Shown here one piece after another: positions 7,507 through 36,069 of a DNA stretch of 38,605 bases (positions are counted from its first letter, which is position 1; each line of letters starts with the position of its first letter). Location of the stretch: contig CADABS010000024.1 of assembly GCA_902786245.1 (NCBI GenBank), positions 1 to 38,605 on the forward strand. Reading direction: 5' to 3'. The stretch is from an uncultured Erysipelotrichaceae bacterium (GTDB lineage: Bacteria > Bacillota_I > Bacilli_A > Erysipelotrichales > Erysipelotrichaceae). The translations under genes were made by a program, and so were the position numbers. The notes under the pieces were generated by a model. That model made no database searches. It saw only the letters and a list, made by a program, of their open reading frames with translations, and was not told the origin of the DNA.

Positions 7507-7926
7507 TCACTGTTTATGAACTTTCTGCCGCATCCGCTTCCATTTTGCATACAGCGACGCACCGATGGCTACGGCCAGAGACGCTCCATGCAGGATCACC
7601 GACAATGCCCTGACGGAATCCGAGATATTGGCATACTGCGAGCCGATCCCGCTTCCCTGTCCCATGGCCGATGCATATTTCATCATGATCATGAAAGAGA
7701 CCATGATCATCGTTATTCTTGCCCAGAATACAGACAGACCGCTGCTGCGGAATACCCCCAGACACAGCGGCAGCGCACATACAGCGGCCAGTTCCAGCCA
7801 GAAGCTGAGCTGTCCGATCATAAACCCCGCCGTCATGGTCATATACAGGATCAGCAGTGCCATCAGGATCCCGCACAGTGCACCGCCGAAGATACTCAAT
7901 AACAGATTTTTTGTTTTCGTTTCCAT
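7507..7926 (-). CDS. small four-helix membrane protein, unknown
   Basis: 139 residues from the ATG at 7926. It has four hydrophobic segments, Met/Gly/Ala-rich, with a basic C-terminus (KWKRMRQKVHKQ). No family is recognised. Longer in-frame starts (7944, 7935) are rejected because a TACAAT -10 box lies at 7934-7939, upstream of the ATG by 7 bases. No Shine-Dalgarno sequence is present, so the message may be leaderless. It is 31 bases upstream of the GH2 gene and probably opens that operon. Confidence 0.7.
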   Translation of the reverse strand: METKTKNLLLSIFGGALCGILMALLILYMTMTAGFMIGQLSFWLELAAVCALPLCLGVFRSSGLSVFWARITMIMVSFMIMMKYASAMGQGSGIGSQYANISDSVRALSVILHGASLAVAIGASLYAKWKRMRQKVHKQ

Positions 7927-7933
7927 ACCGTAC

Positions 7934-7962
7934 ATTGTACACAAAGCACGGCAAATTGAAAA
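7934..7962 (-). promoter_or_regulatory. promoter, probably of the 7926-1993 operon
   Basis: On the minus strand: TTTTCA (7962-7957), a 17-bp spacer, then TACAAT (7939-7934). The ATG at 7926 follows the -10 box after 7 bases, so the expected transcript start falls on or next to the start codon. Confidence 0.6.
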
Positions 7963-14849: not shown

Positions 14850-16058
14850 TTAACCAGGATATTGTATCACATTGAAATCGGGCGTTACAGAGTAATGATT
14901 TACATCGCATCCCAGCCCGGGCACCAGAATAATGTCCCCGCGGCTGTTCACAACGACCGGCCAGGTCTCCCGTAAATACAGGGGAATATGGCGGTCGATG
15001 AAAAAACGGTGAACGCTCTTGGTACCGAAACGCATCCTGATCCGGTCGCCTTCCCGGAAGGAACGCACAGTCAGAGGAAAGTCATCCTCTTTCACCGTAC
15101 AGGCAAAGACACCCGGTGTTCCTTCTGTGATCCGGTATGTCTTTTTCATGATATTCCGCATTTCATCAAGGGATGCATAGGTATCTTCAAAAGGATCATA
15201 CAGATCAGCCATGAAGAAATGCCCGTCCTTCTGCACCAGATTTCTTTTCCCGATACGGATCATGAAATCATTCTGCTTCATCAGAATATGATCGGTTTCC
15301 AAAAGAAATGCACGGGAGAGATGGTCATTTCCCGCCGTCATCCGCAGCAGAGCGATTCTGTCTTCTTCCGGCAGATGCCGGTATTCTTCAAGCGATACCT
15401 CTGCATCGCGGATCATCGTCTTTACCCGGCAGGTTCTTTCCTGCTTTACGGCATTCTTCATTCTGATTTCCCGCAGAACCATATCCCTTTCCATCCGGGA
15501 CATCGGTTCAACCATGGTATGACGGATCCGGTTGCGGGCATAGCTTTCATCCGCATTGGTGGAATCGATATAATACCGGATCTTTCTTTCATCGCAGTAC
15601 TGTTCCAGCTGCTTCTTCGTATAGCCAAGAAGTGGTCTGACGACCCGTACGCCTTGGTACAGGATTTCTTCTTTCAGTCCGTAATACGACGGCTCTATAT
15701 TCTTTTCTTCCTGCATGAAATAGGTCTCGATCAGATCATCTTCATGATGGGCGACCATGATGCCGGCATAACTGTTTTCTTTCACAAGGCTGCAGAAAAA
15801 GGCATATCTTCTGTCTCTTGCGGCAGCTTCAAAATTCCCTGTATATACAAACGGTGTGTTCAGTACATGCACGGGAATATGATGTTCCTGACAGAACGAG
15901 CGCACATACATCTCTTCTTCATCTGCTTCGGGACGATGATGATAATTGACATGGGCACAGACGATATCCGTCTGACTGTCCAGGCACATTGAAAGCAGAG
16001 CCATTGAATCCGGCCCTCCCGATACGCCGATCAGCCATGTGCCTGCCATCTTTTTCAC
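14850..16058 (-). CDS. tilS: tRNA(Ile)-lysidine synthase
   Basis: 402 residues with a GTG start at 16058, or 399 with the ATG at 16049. It attaches lysine to C34 of the minor tRNA-Ile so that it reads AUA. The PP-loop ATPase motif SGGPDS is at 13-18; the C-terminal TilS domain includes FREGDRIRMRFGTKSV and the HIPLYLRE segment. No clear Shine-Dalgarno sequence precedes either start. A TATGAT lies 6 bases before the GTG, so a leaderless GTG message is possible. It heads the tilS-hpt-ftsH block. Confidence 0.94.
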   Translation of the reverse strand: MKKMAGTWLIGVSGGPDSMALLSMCLDSQTDIVCAHVNYHHRPEADEEEMYVRSFCQEHHIPVHVLNTPFVYTGNFEAAARDRRYAFFCSLVKENSYAGIMVAHHEDDLIETYFMQEEKNIEPSYYGLKEEILYQGVRVVRPLLGYTKKQLEQYCDERKIRYYIDSTNADESYARNRIRHTMVEPMSRMERDMVLREIRMKNAVKQERTCRVKTMIRDAEVSLEEYRHLPEEDRIALLRMTAGNDHLSRAFLLETDHILMKQNDFMIRIGKRNLVQKDGHFFMADLYDPFEDTYASLDEMRNIMKKTYRITEGTPGVFACTVKEDDFPLTVRSFREGDRIRMRFGTKSVHRFFIDRHIPLYLRETWPVVVNSRGDIILVPGLGCDVNHYSVTPDFNVIQYPG

Positions 16059-16065
16059 AGCAGAA

Positions 16066-16578
16066 TCATATCATATCGATGACTCTGTTTCTTACTGTTC
16101 TGAACATGGCACTGTCCACCGGCATATGCGCTTTGACATCAATGACTCTGGCTGTATTGACGAAGCGGAAATCATTGAGAAACAGGACCGAAGGACGGTT
16201 CATCCCCTCCAGCATACCGATCCGCATCAGATGTTTCTTGCCATTGGGATTGTCAGTACGGTCATAGGCCTGGGCATAAGTCTTCGGATTGCTGGTCATC
16301 GGCACACACAGTGCCTTGCGGTTTTTGACGGAGATAATCAGTCCGAAATGCTGGTAGCCGACCTCATTGAGATAGGCCATGCCGAAATCCATATAGCAGA
16401 TATCTCCCGGCCGCACCCGGATACCCATTGCCTCACCGGATGACATCCGCGACCGGATGATCCAGTTGGCCTCTGAGATCAGAGAGCCCGTATAATGTTC
16501 CGGTATCAGGGTTTCATAAATACCTGCCCGGTAGCGCATATACTGCGTCCACATCTTTTCATTATTTTTCACTGTCAT
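16066..16578 (-). CDS. PemK/MazF-like toxin protein, orphan
   Basis: 170 residues from the ATG at 16578. The central part fits the MazF/PemK fold: GDICYMDFG (about 88-96), then GLIISV, VPMTSNP, and a C-terminal block around SVLFLNDFRFVNTARVID. It is longer than classic MazF (about 110 residues) owing to an extra 80-residue helical N-terminus. If active it would be an endoribonuclease, but no MazE-like partner is adjacent. The start is preceded by a strong AAGGAAGGAG that lies in the 3' arm of a hairpin formed by the 60-bp repeat. Upstream in-frame ATG within the repeat would add an 18-residue extension. Confidence 0.65.
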   Translation of the reverse strand: MTVKNNEKMWTQYMRYRAGIYETLIPEHYTGSLISEANWIIRSRMSSGEAMGIRVRPGDICYMDFGMAYLNEVGYQHFGLIISVKNRKALCVPMTSNPKTYAQAYDRTDNPNGKKHLMRIGMLEGMNRPSVLFLNDFRFVNTARVIDVKAHMPVDSAMFRTVRNRVIDMI

Positions 16579-16635
16579 AAAGAAAAACTCCTTCCTTTGT
16601 GTATATACGCAGGGAAAGAGCTTTTTACGCATTTT
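16576..16635 (-). repeat. 60-bp direct repeat, copy 1 (leader with SD-masking hairpin)
   Basis: This block is nearly identical to 17367-17425 (one A inserted here). Read on the minus strand, CTCTTTCC (16620-16613) can pair with GGAAGGAG (16595-16588), which is the ribosome site of the MazF-like gene. A T run and the ATG follow directly. The same hairpin also looks like a terminator or attenuator. Upstream lies TATAAT (16651-16646, minus strand). The repeat also encodes a short peptide, MRKKLFPCVYTQRKEF, in frame with the downstream gene. Confidence 0.85.
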
Positions 16636-16636
16636 T

Positions 16637-16997
16637 TCACAGCAGATTATATGACATGCCCGATTCATTTATATAGCGGTCCTGCGTTTCCTCCATGGAA
16701 CCGGCTCCAAAAAGAGCAAGCATATAGTCTTCATGTTCATGAAAGATATTAATGATTTGAATACTGTCTTCTGAAACACGGAAAAAAACATAATTATGAG
16801 CAATATAAACATATCGATAATCCGTATCAACACCGTACATTCCGCGCAGAGACACCCCGCTTTCCGGATGAATCTGCAGCAGATGAAGCCGATCTGTAAT
16901 CCGCTGCAGTGTCCTTAAGCTGACTTCTCCGCCGAAGTGGAAACTAAGCTTTTTTTATCTTTTTCAGTTTTCTGCGATACTGCAGCGAATAAACCAG
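16637..16997 (-). pseudogene. decayed ParE/RelE-type toxin
   Basis: The C-terminal two thirds are readable in one frame (from about 16920 to 16637): RITDRLHLLQIHPESGVSL, then a YRYVYIAHNYVFFRV strand typical of ParE toxins. Further upstream that frame hits stops. A fitting N-terminus (LQYRRKLKKIKKA) is found in another frame right after the antitoxin stop and ends in TAG. So the gene carries at least one frameshift, probably also a deletion, and lacks a normal start codon behind the GGAG at 17002-16999. A GTG at 16855 could start only a 72-residue fragment. Confidence 0.7.
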
Positions 16998-17002
16998 TCT
17001 CC

Positions 17003-17263
17003 TCAATCAGAAATCCCCATTTCTTTTTCCAGCACATCCGCTTCAATCCAGCCGCTTTTCTGTGCTTCATCTTCTGCTGCTTTCAGATCTGTCAGAAGAT
17101 GATACATTGCCTTTACTCTGTCGAGTTCATCTGCTTCTTCGATACGCATAATGGCATAGGCACCGTGGCCGTTTCTTGTCAGATATACTCTTTTCTTTTC
17201 GTCAACTTCTCTTAATACATCCGTATAGTTTCTTAAGTCAGAAATCGGTTTTATACTTGGCAT
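17003..17263 (-). CDS. Phd/YefM-family antitoxin
   Basis: 86 residues from the ATG at 17263, preceded by AGGCGG. The sequence PISDLRNYTDVLREVDEKK, then VYLTRNGHGAYAIMRIE, is the Phd/YefM DNA-binding fold; the C-terminal part (about 55-86) is the toxin-binding tail. It normally represses its own operon and neutralises the toxin encoded next. Here the following ParE gene is broken, so the antitoxin is an intact remnant, which may still act as repressor or guard against related toxins elsewhere. Confidence 0.85.
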   Translation of the reverse strand: MPSIKPISDLRNYTDVLREVDEKKRVYLTRNGHGAYAIMRIEEADELDRVKAMYHLLTDLKAAEDEAQKSGWIEADVLEKEMGISD

Positions 17264-17297
17264 ATTCTTTCCGCCTTTCTCAATGTTCTGTACGGAT

Positions 17298-17326
17298 ATT
17301 ATATGAATCATTTCAAACCCATGCAA
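17298..17326 (-). promoter_or_regulatory. promoter of the antitoxin gene
   Basis: Minus strand TTGCAT (17326-17321), 17-bp spacer, perfect TATAAT (17303-17298); the ATG follows 34 bases later. The -35 box is weak. Confidence 0.5.
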
Positions 17327-17366
17327 ATTAACATGTGAATATTGCATCATCCAATCTGTTCTCCGG

Positions 17367-17425
17367 CATAAAGAAAACTCCTTCCTTTGTGTATATACGC
17401 AGGGAAAGAGCTTTTTACGCATTTT
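17367..17425 (-). repeat. 60-bp direct repeat, copy 2
   Basis: Second copy of the block at 16576-16635, same orientation. The same hairpin arms are present (17410-17403 with 17385-17378). It starts at the stop codon of the DUF1146 gene and ends in an ATG that opens only 13 codons, so it may serve here as a terminator, or be a leader cut off from its gene. Confidence 0.85.
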
Positions 17426-17624: not shown

Positions 17625-18245
17625 TTACTTCGTGCCGAAAATTCTGTCGCCGGCATCGCCCAGACCCGGAACGATGTAGCCGGTCTCATTGAGTTTTTCA
17701 TCCAGCGCTGCCAGATACAGATCGACATCCGGATGCGCTTCTTCCAGTGCCTTGACACCTTCCGGTGCGCCGACCAGGCAGACCATCTTGATATTCTTTG
17801 CGCCGCGCTTCTTGATCATATTGATCGCATCAACAGCGCTTCCGCCTGTTGCAAGCATCGGGTCGACGACCATGACGATCGCGTCTTCCAGATTCTTCGG
17901 GAACTTTGCGAAATATTCGTGCGGTTCCAGTGTTTCCTCATCTCTGTACAAGCCGATGAAGCCGACCTTGGCAGTCGGAACCAGACGGCGGATACCGTCC
18001 AGCAGGCCGATGCCTGCTCTCAGGATCGGAACGATGATGACTTCCTTGGACAGTTCATAGCCTGTCATCTTTGCCATCGGTGTTTCAATTTCAACCGGCT
18101 TGACCGGCAGGTCGCGGCATACTTCATACGCCATCAGTTCTGCAATTTCATCAAGATGCTCACGGAAATCTTTGGTACCGCAGTTCTTGTCTCTCATCTG
18201 TGTCAGTTTATGCGTGATTAAAGGGTGATCGAGTACTGTAAGCAT
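17625..18245 (-). CDS. upp: uracil phosphoribosyltransferase
   Basis: 206 residues, normal length. It salvages uracil with PRPP to UMP. The PRPP-binding motif [11 protein letters not shown] is at about 127-137 and the uracil-binding C-terminus contains [10 protein letters not shown]. The start at 18245 has GGAGGAG upstream; the longer open frame upstream is not coding. It is followed without a gap by the DUF1146 gene. Confidence 0.97.
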
Positions 18246-18276
18246 AATTTGAACTCCTCCGTTTTTCTCTTTTACA

Positions 18277-18305
18277 ATGATATTCCAATCCAGGCGCACA
18301 GGCAA
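18277..18305 (-). promoter_or_regulatory. upp promoter
   Basis: Minus strand TTGCCT (18305-18300), 17-bp spacer, TATCAT (18282-18277), 31 bases before the start codon. It lies back to back with the TATACT at 18313-18318 of the divergent glycosyltransferase gene. Confidence 0.6.
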
Positions 18306-18324
18306 GGTGGTGTATACTGATACT

Positions 18325-19425
18325 ATGAGAATTCTGATCGTGCCGCTGATCCTCAGAAACACCATGGAAGCCAATGCCTGCTTTACCCGGGAACTGGCAG
18401 AACTTTTGGTGCGCAGCGGTCACAGTACCGCCGTCTCTGCCCCGAAAGATATCCGTCTGTCAGGGGTTTCTCTGCATCCGTGTCCAGTGACGAAAAAACC
18501 GTTTCTGATCCGGGCAGACGGACGCAGCTATGAAGAATGGATGTACAATAACGGCTGCCTCCAGCAGAAATATCTGCAGGAAGATACCGATCATCTGATC
18601 CGGACCATCGATGCATTTCATCCCGATGTCATGATCGTCATGGACAGACCTGCCGCATGCATTGCCGCAAGGGTCCGCTCCATACCGGTATGCGCCTGGG
18701 TCCATCCGGCGATGTACCGTTCCAAGACACCGCCCTATAAACTGCTGAAAGGCCTGAATGCGGTTCTCTCTTCCTTCCGGCTTGAACAGGAACATACCCT
18801 TGCCGCCCTGTATAACCGGTGCCGGTCCCGGGTTTCGCCCGGAACCGCAGATACCGCCGGATTCCGCAAAGAAAGCGATATCTCCCGGATCGGTGTGATC
18901 CGTGCTTATCCGCTGCGTCCGTCAAACAGCGGCGATCCGCTCATCCTGCTGGGAAATACGGAAAAGAATACTTCTTCACTGCGGAGCGTAATCAAAGAAA
19001 CATTCGGCGGCGCACCCTATCCGGTATACGCATGGGTGGATGGCGTAAAGAATGAACAGATTGGATATCTGCAGTTTCTGCAGAAGCCGCCGGTATCCCG
19101 TATCCCGAGCGCTTCCGTTTTGATCCATGACGGAAATACAGCCCTGTACCATCAGGCTGCCGCCTGCGGCATACCGCAGATCATCGTCACCGATCATACA
19201 TACAGCCGAATCTGGAACGGACAGACTGCCCAGAGATGCGGTATCGGCCTGTATCTGTTCGAAGAAGAACTGACCGTTTCCGGTCTCTATGAAGCCTACC
19301 GGCAGATCTGCAGCGATGACCGGTTTGCGGAAAATACGAGAAGAATGCGGGAAGAAGCTCTGCGTCTGGGCGATCTTGAAAAGATCATTCCGGTCCTGGA
19401 GCAGATCCGCAGAAAACAGAACTGA
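18325..19425 (+). CDS. GT1/UGT-like glycosyltransferase
   Basis: 366 residues. A GT-B protein: the N-terminal domain has the glycine-free start [20 protein letters not shown], while the C-terminal half carries the nucleotide-sugar site of the UGT type ([19 protein letters not shown], then [10 protein letters not shown]), in which DGN stands in place of the usual HGG. There is no signal peptide or membrane helix. Donor and acceptor are unknown; macrolide/lipid glycosyltransferases are the nearest type. The ATG at 18325 follows TATACT (18313-18318) after 6 bases and has no close ribosome site, so the transcript may be leaderless. Confidence 0.75.
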
Positions 19426-27890: not shown

Positions 27891-29000
27891 TCACCAGGTT
27901 AGATCCCGGAAGTCTTTATTTCTGCTCAGTTCCCGGTGCAGCCGGCGCAGAGCCTTTGCCTCGATCTGGCGGATCCTTTCCCGGGTGACATGGCAGGCAT
28001 TGCCTACTTCTTCCAGGGTCTTGGAATGATTCGTTCCGTCCAGTCCGAACCGCATCCGCAGGATCATTTCTTCCCGCTCGGGAAGTTCTTTCAGGAGTCT
28101 GTCAACGATCTCCTGCAGACTCGTGTTATTGACATATTCCATCGGGTCGATCGCCGTGGAACTCGGAATAAAGTCGCCCAGCGTCGATGTCTCTTCATCG
28201 CCGGCCGGTGTTTCCAGCGATACGGTATCCAGCATCAGTTTCTGGATCTCTTCGACCTTGTCCTCACTCATCCCGTCGATCTTCTCCGCGATCTCCGCCG
28301 CCGTCGGATGACGGTCCAGTTCCTGGATCAGATTCCGCTCGGCCCTGCGTACCTTGACGATCTGCTCATTCAGATGCACCGGCAGACGGATATCCCTTGA
28401 CTGGTCCGCGATTGCCCGGGTCATGGACTGGCGGATCCACCAGGTCGCATAGGTACTGAAACGGAAGCCGCGGGAATAATCGAATTTCTCGACAGCCCGC
28501 ATCAGTCCGATATTGCCTTCCTGAATCAGATCCAGGATCGACAGACCGCGGTTGGTGTAATCCTTGGCAATCGAAACAACCAGACGCAGATTGCTGGAAA
28601 TCAGAAGTTCCTTAGCGTCCTTATCGCCTTCGGCTGCCTTCTTTGCGGCTTCATATTCCTGTTCCGGCTTCAGCAGAGGTATATCGCCGATTTCCTTCAG
28701 ATACTGACGGACGCTGTCCTGTCCCCGGCGGCTGCCGGCAGAAACGGAAGGTATTTCCGGCTGATGTTCCTCTTCTTCCTCTTCTTCTTCTTCTGCTTCC
28801 TCCGCTATTTCATCATCCATTTCCCCGGTTTCATCCAGTTCCTGAAACCAGGCAAAAAGATCTTCTGTTTCTTCTTCGCTGAGGTGCATTTTCTGTGCTT
28901 CCTCCAGCAGTTCTTTTTCCGATACCTTCTCTCCCTGTGAAAGCTTCTGCAGAAAAGCATCCCGCAGTTGTTCCAGAAGGTTATTCTGTTTTTCGCTCAT
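27891..29000 (-). CDS. rpoD: primary sigma factor RpoD/SigA
   Basis: 369 residues from the ATG at 29000 (AGGAGG 8 bases before); the open frame begins at 29018. A region 1.1-like N-terminus with a long acidic run (about 68-85, mostly Glu), region 1.2 ([15 protein letters not shown]), region 2 with the -10 reading helix ([15 protein letters not shown]), region 3, and region 4 with the -35 helix-turn-helix ([18 protein letters not shown]) are all present. In most Firmicutes rpoD follows dnaG; here no primase gene is present and rpoD heads an operon with prfA-prmC. Confidence 0.97.
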
Positions 29001-29027
29001 CCCTCTGTCCTCCTGCATCCATCTATG

Positions 29028-35247: not shown

Positions 35248-35580
35248 TTAATATGCGTCTTCTCCTTTAGGTATATCCAGACCGCTGTCATCGATCGGCT
35301 CATCCGTTTCTTCATCTTCGATTTCGATGTTGCTCGTATCGATATAGACTTCATCGAATTTACGGCGGTTCCGCAGATCCCACTTATTTCCTTCCAGTGA
35401 GGCGAAACGGTTGTCCATTGAAAGTTCAGAATAAAACCGGCTCTGTTTTTTCTTGCGCTTTTCTTCCGGAATTTCCATCTCCTCCGCTACTTCCTGCCAG
35501 AGTTTTCCGAATTCGACTTCTTTTTTCCGTTTAGAAAGCCAGGTGTAGGCAACGTCAGTCATTGTCTGATTATACGTCAT
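35248..35580 (-). CDS. rpoE: RNA polymerase delta subunit
   Basis: 110 residues. The N-terminal HARE-HTH domain (about 8-75, DVAYTWLSKRKKEVEFGKLW, then FASLEGNKWDLR) is followed by a short acidic tail (about 78-110) rich in Asp and Glu. It is shorter than the Bacillus protein (about 170) because the tail is short. Delta helps recycle RNA polymerase and sharpen promoter choice. AAGGAGAG precedes the ATG. Its presence argues for a Bacilli/Erysipelotrichia relative. Confidence 0.88.
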   Translation of the reverse strand: MTYNQTMTDVAYTWLSKRKKEVEFGKLWQEVAEEMEIPEEKRKKKQSRFYSELSMDNRFASLEGNKWDLRNRRKFDEVYIDTSNIEIEDEETDEPIDDSGLDIPKGEDAY

Positions 35581-35662: not shown

Positions 35663-36034
35663 TCAATCAATTCTGCGCCAATAGATCACCTGATGCGTTA
35701 CTGCTTCGCCGCCGCTGAAAATCCTGTATTCTGCGGCTCTGTATCCGTTCCTGCAGTCGTAATTCACGAGTTCTGTTTCCAGACACATATCGCCGTACTG
35801 CGAACAGATCAGCGTTTTCCCCCTTCCTCCTCTGTACAGTTTCGTCTTCGAGCGCATATCTTCCGTGCTGCGCTCAATCGTCAGACCGTTATCTTCAAAG
35901 AGAATCCGGTGTCTGCTTCCATCTGAGGCAATGTACAGCAGCCGCTGTCCGTCAAACAGCGCATCGGCATTCTCCAGTATTTCCTTTGTATGTTCAAGCA
36001 GATCTTCTCTGCCCATTTCCACACGGATCTTCAC
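35663..36034 (-). CDS. DUF1934 (YwiB-like) protein
   Basis: 123 residues from the GTG at 36034. The sequence MKIRVEM (GTG read as Met) is the usual start of this beta-barrel family, and the end (RIFSGGEAVTHQVIYW) also fits; B. subtilis ywiB is likewise near rpoE. An ATG at 36091 is excluded because a consensus promoter lies between it and the GTG. The GTG follows the -10 box by 7 bases with no ribosome site, so the message is probably leaderless. Function is unknown. Confidence 0.75.
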   Translation of the reverse strand: MKIRVEMGREDLLEHTKEILENADALFDGQRLLYIASDGSRHRILFEDNGLTIERSTEDMRSKTKLYRGGRGKTLICSQYGDMCLETELVNYDCRNGYRAAEYRIFSGGEAVTHQVIYWRRID

Positions 36035-36041
36035 AAGGCGT

Positions 36042-36069
36042 ATTGTACTAGGAATATCGCAGGTGTCAA
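36042..36069 (-). promoter_or_regulatory. strong promoter of the DUF1934-rpoE genes
   Basis: Minus strand TTGACA (36069-36064, perfect), 16-bp spacer, TACAAT (36047-36042). The transcript start should fall at about 36035-36034, on the GTG codon of the gene. Confidence 0.8.

Follow-up and report, generated by a model that had tools for sequence, protein, structure and literature searches.

The window, i.e., the whole stretch of 38,605 nucleotides that we analysed from an uncultured Erysipelotrichaceae bacterium, contains four genes in which a -10 box lies 6 or 7 nt ahead of an ATG or GTG start codon (Table 1). These are a gene for a DUF1934-like protein, which is followed by the gene for the RNA polymerase delta subunit, the gene tilS, a glycosyltransferase-like gene and a gene for a small hydrophobic protein. 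Below, d denotes the number of bases between the -10 box and the start codon. The genome to which the window belongs, that of a gut bacterium, is a 2.75-Mb assembly in 102 contigs, with 50.5% GC in the sampled part; the closest named tilS records come from MAGs labelled Erysipelotrichaceae or Solobacterium, several of them from rumen.

Table 1. Features of the window that are discussed in the text.
Feature	Positions	Strand	Basis or remark
-35 box TTGACA of the DUF1934-like gene	36064..36069	-	sequence; 36069 is the first base of the box
-10 box TACAAT of the DUF1934-like gene	36042..36047	-	sequence; 7 nt ahead of GTG 36034
Gene for DUF1934 (YwiB)-like protein, GTG start, proposed leaderless	35663..36034	-	homologues match PF09148
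RNA polymerase delta subunit gene, 3' of the DUF1934-like gene, own SD site	35248..35580	-	TIGR04567, E=5e-23; SD -8.2 kcal/mol
Extended -10 box TGA-TATGAT of tilS	16065..16073	-	6 nt ahead of GTG; overlaps stop codon of the PemK-like gene 5' of tilS
tilS, first gene of tilS-hpt-ftsH, GTG start, proposed leaderless	14850..16058	-	Pfam; orthologue layout
Phd/YefM-like antitoxin gene	17003-17311	-	below Pfam cut-off
-10 box TATACT of the glycosyltransferase-like gene	18313..18318	+	6 nt ahead of ATG 18325
Glycosyltransferase-like gene, divergent from upp, proposed leaderless	18325..19425	+	PF06722, E=4e-12
-10 box TACAAT of the gene at 7926	7934..7939	-	7 nt ahead of ATG 7926
Gene for small hydrophobic protein, leaderless layout here	7507..7926	-	no Pfam or NCBIfam match

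A preliminary description of this DNA had proposed that the DUF1934-like gene is transcribed into a leaderless mRNA, given a promoter TTGACA-16-TACAAT that is followed after 7 nt by a GTG with no Shine-Dalgarno (SD) sequence. Both the promoter and its distance to GTG 36034 on the minus strand are read directly from the sequence. The pairing energy with the anti-SD is +0.6 kcal/mol at this start codon, as against -8 to -10 kcal/mol at SD-led genes nearby, e.g., the delta subunit gene, a divergent FemAB gene (-9.2 kcal/mol) and upp (-9.5 kcal/mol). The lack is also not general, as had been stated: the median SD energy at transcript-heading genes of this genome is -7.35 kcal/mol, which excludes a genome-wide absence of SD sites. 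A promoter of this quality is rare, since the 2.48 million strand-bases of the genome contain 16 cases of a perfect TTGACA combined with a -10 box that matches at least 5 of 6 positions at a spacing of 16-18, and the chance of finding one at d=5-8 is about 2.6e-5 per gene.

The protein encoded here in the window does not itself match any Pfam family. Its homologues at the same places, which were found in the same genus by protein search and a family model, belong to DUF1934 (PF09148). That GTG 36034 gives the family's N-terminus is borne out by 41 of 47 genus homologues (the window excluded), whose alignments begin at residue 13-23 of the long form, i.e., at or close to the GTG, which is residue 20; those of the other six begin elsewhere. 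We rejected ATG 36091, in the same frame, as the start, because it has no SD (+0.8 kcal/mol) and is absent from orthologues. In-frame starts 3' of the GTG were also rejected, as their SD sites are weak (-3.7 kcal/mol) and their use would remove an N-terminal segment that relatives keep; this speaks against a mis-called start at this gene.

The distance between promoter and start codon appears labile among relatives of this gene. It was found in 48 of 60 genomes and could be read in 46, the other two copies lying at contig edges. In 30 of these 46, a -35 and a -10 box that each match at least 5 of 6 positions occur within 30 nt of the start, at d = 6 to 23. The value is 6-8 in only 8 of the 46 orthologues, the window's gene included, and not in the other 38; 16 have no strong promoter within 30 nt, and several of these have SD sites. 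The 16-nt spacer is shared by 29 of the 30 promoters. Strong promoters of the window's genome have a spacer of 16 in 13 cases and of 17 in 17.

The other three sites named in the preliminary description are likewise present as described, i.e., TACAAT-7-ATG at 7926, TATACT-6-ATG at 18325 and TATGAT-6-GTG at 16058 (tilS). It had listed tilS with a "perhaps", and this, rather than the DUF1934-like gene, is the best supported of the four. It had further suggested a check of whether orthologues keep the distance between -10 box and start codon. The outcome of this check differs by gene: it is strongly positive at tilS and at 18325, positive with a labile distance at the DUF1934-like gene, and weak at 7926. 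For the last gene, 20 loci were read out of 51 genomes with a match, and the layout is seen in two of them (the window and locus L232) and is absent from 18, so that it appears hardly conserved. We also considered TATAAT-9-ATG at 29018 as a leaderless start and rejected it, since the ATG at 29000 that comes after it has a strong SD site (-10.3 kcal/mol).

The distribution of -10 boxes across the genome gives a more general view. Genes were called on 1.24 Mb of the window's genome with a dicodon model that used no upstream signal, and a box was accepted if it had the form TA...T with at least 5 of 6 matches. Among 514 transcript-heading genes, the boxes cluster broadly at d=20-33, corresponding to SD-led genes, and show an isolated spike at d=6, with counts of 0, 1, 1, 12, 4 and 4 at d=3, 4, 5, 6, 7 and 8. 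Dinucleotide shuffles yield 2.8 +/- 1.6 at d=6, and none of 300 reaches 12. A congener (G082, 37% GC) has 7 of 164 genes at d=6 where shuffles have 1.4, and again none of 300 reaches the observed count. No gene out of 170 lies at d=6 in G050, the single sister-family genome that was sampled genome-wide. The spike is absent from genes close behind a same-strand neighbour (1 of 475 at d=6 in the window's genome, 0 of 110 in the congener). When only 4 of 6 box matches are required, weaker spikes remain, namely 14 against 7.5 in the window's genome (4 of 300 shuffles reach this) and 9 against 3.8 in the congener (2 of 300).

The excess over shuffles is about 9 of 514 genes in the window's genome and 5-6 of 164 in the congener, which suggests that 2-3% of transcript-heading genes are leaderless. 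The upstream neighbour lies on the opposite strand for 11 of the 12 d=6 genes of the window's genome, so these genes need a promoter of their own. Starts were picked by coding score or homology, and by that score 2 of these 12 genes and 3 of the congener's 7 have a single plausible start. The Pfam families of the 12 genes are mixed (SRAP, DUF1836, EamA, Macro, NUDIX, AddB-like nuclease, GNAT, YgjP and others), and no functional theme is visible by inspection.

It might be supposed that such matches reflect chance or mis-called starts, i.e., that the true leaders come from promoters further upstream, or that an SD-led start lies downstream, and that the -10-like hexamer is a coincidence. This does occur at single genes, as the site at 29018 illustrates, and about 3 of the 12 matches at d=6 are expected by chance. 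We nevertheless regard this explanation of the class as highly improbable, because it does not account for the conservation at tilS and the glycosyltransferase gene, where it is mainly the -10 element and its distance from the start codon that persist in diverged flanks.

This conservation is most pronounced at tilS, which was found in 65 of 70 genomes of the genus; 60 loci were read, with the five weakest matches left out. Accepting TAnnnT boxes with at least 4 of 6 matches, we found one at d=6 in 48 of the 60 and at d=5-8 in 53. Because orthologues share ancestry, these counts are not independent; with near-identical upstream regions removed, the box is at d=6 in 38 of 49. The genus is very diverse, with 47-63% identity among the TilS proteins that we read. 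In an unanchored alignment of 11 loci, TGnTA is the sole run of invariant columns upstream of the gene, and the last T of the box is invariant too. When 49 non-redundant upstream regions are anchored at the start codon, strong information is confined to -17 to -14 (TGTG), -12/-11 (TA), -8/-7 (AT) and -1 (C in 51%). Mis-calling is further disfavoured by the 39 of 60 genes that have one candidate start near the homologous position.

The tilS promoters are mostly of the extended -10 type. TGnTAnnnT is found at d=6 in 44 of the 60 genes, which means that TGn precedes 44 of the 48 d=6 boxes, compared with a background of 6.1%. The triplet reads TGA in 19 of these 44, where it can double as the stop codon of the gene before tilS, and TGG, TGT or TGC in the other 25. 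Matches to a -35 box ahead of the d=6 boxes are near background.

The situation in the sister family is different. Among 24 of its genomes, a box at d=5-8 ahead of tilS was seen in one (G053, TATAAT at d=6), and an SD site of -6 kcal/mol or better is present in 20, as opposed to 5 of 60 in the genus. Many of the sister-family genes have TATAAT at d=15-19 or further upstream. At loci L320-L328 the box lies at d=15-19, so the message would begin with the SD or close to it and have an ultra-short SD leader. Such an arrangement, with an SD close to the start codon and a -10 box about 15 nt or more away from it, was not seen for tilS in the genus.

An explanation specific to tilS is that its expression depends mainly on translational coupling to the PemK-like gene upstream, with the internal promoter playing a minor role. 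A PemK-like homologue ends -11 to 44 nt ahead of tilS in 47 of the 60 genus loci, which is compatible with coupling; the gap is variable, however, and the -10 element persists where the PemK-like neighbour was not found. We therefore judge it improbable that coupling is the main route. Given that this gene is usually close upstream, a read-through mRNA with a leader may also exist at tilS.

The PemK/MazF-like gene itself (16066-16578, minus strand) lies directly upstream of tilS. Its window copy falls below the Pfam cut-off for PF02452, and 8 of 9 aligned members match this family at E 0.01. MazF carries a G..RP motif. In the 47 aligned PemK-like proteins QH is invariant, mostly as GYQHFG; within the toxin superfamily, this may be a housekeeping protein. 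It has no sequence match in the PDB, and its predicted structure is poor (mean pLDDT 50.8). Further upstream, a 52-bp exact direct repeat at 16584 and 17374 (stretch 16584-17425) flanks the Phd/YefM-like antitoxin gene, and this stretch may be a toxin-antitoxin insertion ahead of the PemK-like gene and tilS.

The glycosyltransferase gene was found in 64 of 70 genomes. We read 60 loci and dropped four (one at a contig edge, three with alignments that start inside the protein), which leaves 56. The box is at d=6 in 33 of these, at d=5-8 in 47 and at d=9 in 8, and with near-identical upstream regions removed it is at d=6 in 25 of 42. An SD site of -6 kcal/mol or better is present in 8 of the 56. 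In the window, the SD-like sequence AAGGTGG near 18325 (-10.2 kcal/mol) sits upstream of the gene's own -10 box. Between the divergent upp and glycosyltransferase genes (18245-18325 in the window), several orthologues have in common a block like AATGATATTCCAAAT; this block may belong to the upp promoter on the opposite strand.

The bases around the start codon are also informative. Within the d=6 sets, a pyrimidine precedes the start codon in 12 of 12 genes of the window's genome, 7 of 7 in the congener, 46 of 48 tilS genes and 33 of 33 glycosyltransferase genes, the background being 64%; in the genome samples alone the excess is modest (Fisher p = 0.005 and 0.05). With an ATG or GTG start codon, the base at +1 is a purine. 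The start codon of the 116 tilS and glycosyltransferase orthologues is ATG in 99 cases, GTG in 17 and TTG in none; the absence of TTG is weak evidence, since our homology-based choice of starts penalised this codon. GTG is the start codon in 11 of the 48 tilS genes at d=6. At this distance, an SD between promoter and start codon is not possible by position.

For comparison, the mean distance from box to transcription start at S. agalactiae promoters is six nt, the starting base is A in 63% and G in 32%, and 64% have TGn, according to the sections of PMC4448216 that were available. With these promoters as a guide, the distance from -10 box to start codon, together with the pyrimidine at -1 and the purine at +1, points to transcription that starts on the first base of the start codon.

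It is important to consider the alternative that the leaders are ultra-short, i.e., that the messages carry 1-10 nt ahead of the start codon, again with no SD. Some observations fit such leaders: the eight glycosyltransferase orthologues with d=9, five genus tilS genes with d=11-13, the purine at -1 in 6 of 13 glycosyltransferase genes at d=7, which makes a 1-nt leader possible, and the relatives of the DUF1934-like gene with a nearby promoter, mostly at d=10-18. As a general explanation we consider ultra-short leaders unlikely, given that the spike is limited to d=6, where -1 is almost always a pyrimidine and +1 a purine.

We thus return to leaderless messages. The layout occurs in excess over chance, is conserved at two genes and has a characteristic initiator context. 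The d=6 spike, this context and the orthologue distances support the leaderless reading of the preliminary description, with the mRNA itself being what we infer. With a probability of roughly 0.8, the genus has a small class of leaderless mRNAs, on the order of 2-3% of transcript-heading genes. In the mechanism that we propose, a sigma70-type -10 box (TAnnnT) would have its last base 6 or 7 nt ahead of an ATG or GTG start codon; at tilS, this box would mostly carry a TGn extension, with no clear -35 box. RNA polymerase would start on the first base of the start codon, a purine that follows a pyrimidine, and the resulting mRNA would thus have neither a 5' UTR nor an SD site. By analogy with streptococci and mycobacteria, the ribosome would then bind the 5'-terminal AUG or GUG directly. 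The tilS and glycosyltransferase genes would be stable members of the class. The DUF1934-rpoE gene would be a variable one, its strong TTGACA-16-TATAAT promoter lying 6 to 23 nt ahead of the start in relatives.

Leaderless genes are already known in Firmicutes. The preliminary description had called such messages uncommon in this phylum, which is partly right: as far as the consulted portions of the sources indicate, fewer than 1% of enterococcal messages are leaderless, a few of them with GUG (PMC7724050). The statement does not hold for streptococci, where 8.6-9% of mRNAs are leaderless (PMC6431027; 8-9% when taken with PMC4448216), nor for the survey of Zheng et al. 2011, the available part of which reports leaderless genes in 56 of 209 Firmicutes genomes, mainly in Lactobacillales and Mycoplasma, and gives an average of 4.2% (PMC3160421).

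Our candidates resemble those of S. agalactiae and S. pyogenes in their sigma70 promoters, their frequent TGn -10 boxes and a purine start site about 6 nt past the box, and in that leaderless messages are a minority whose state is conserved between species, judging from the same portions of PMC4448216 and PMC6431027. They differ in the size of the class and in the start codon, which is AUG on all leaderless mRNAs of S. agalactiae. The "TA-led" genes of Zheng et al. 2011 have TANNNT about 12 bp ahead of the start codon. In our genus, TAnnnT is likewise found about 12 bp upstream above chance, the start codon is RTG, and the layout is kept in orthologues of tilS and the glycosyltransferase gene; a gene-by-gene orthologue series was not found in the part of that paper available to us, and its main text does not contain the words Erysipel, Mollicutes or Tenericutes (PMC3160421). 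Mycobacteria accept ATG and GTG at the 5' end and not TTG or CTG, whereas in E. coli a 5'-end GTG yields under 10%, according to the consulted part of PMC4633059. The candidates here are similar to those of mycobacteria in having ATG or GTG at the leaderless position. In mycobacteria, however, leaderless genes are a major genome feature that was shown by reporters and ribosome profiling, as opposed to a minor class that we deduce from sequence (PMC4633059).

We found no report of leaderless mRNA in Erysipelotrich-, Solobacterium or Bulleidia within the retrieved part of the open-access full-text literature, and a search for leaderless and tilS in the open-access literature gave no paper with either term in its title or abstract. 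As far as searched, therefore, the present lineage with its frequent predicted GUG starts would be new to the literature. Tentatively, at slightly less than even odds, we propose a broader picture: a Firmicute lineage with mycobacteria-like leaderless initiation on 5'-terminal GUG and AUG, in which an essential translation gene, tilS, is SD-led with an ultra-short leader in one family and fixed as leaderless across a genus of its sister family in the same order, so that TilS output would depend on the leaderless pathway.

Leaderless initiation may be a relic, or lineages may acquire and lose it; the matter is debated. The layout of tilS is fixed across a very diverse genus, and its message probably begins with the start codon itself. 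A gene with the leaderless layout throughout one genus and an SD-led one in the sister family bears on this debate. The change may have gone in either direction; G053 of the sister family shares the short distance. Within one genus, the leaders predicted for DUF1934-rpoE range in length from 0 to about 16 nt. Together with the tilS contrast, this range makes the transition between leaderless and SD-led initiation testable with reporters. A practical point is that gene callers tuned to SD sites may misplace the starts of leaderless genes. Finally, E. coli has a strong preference for AUG, and frequent leaderless GUG starts would provide a test of whether the present lineage has it as well; if GUG messages are efficiently translated, the lineage would in this regard resemble mycobacteria more than E. 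coli.
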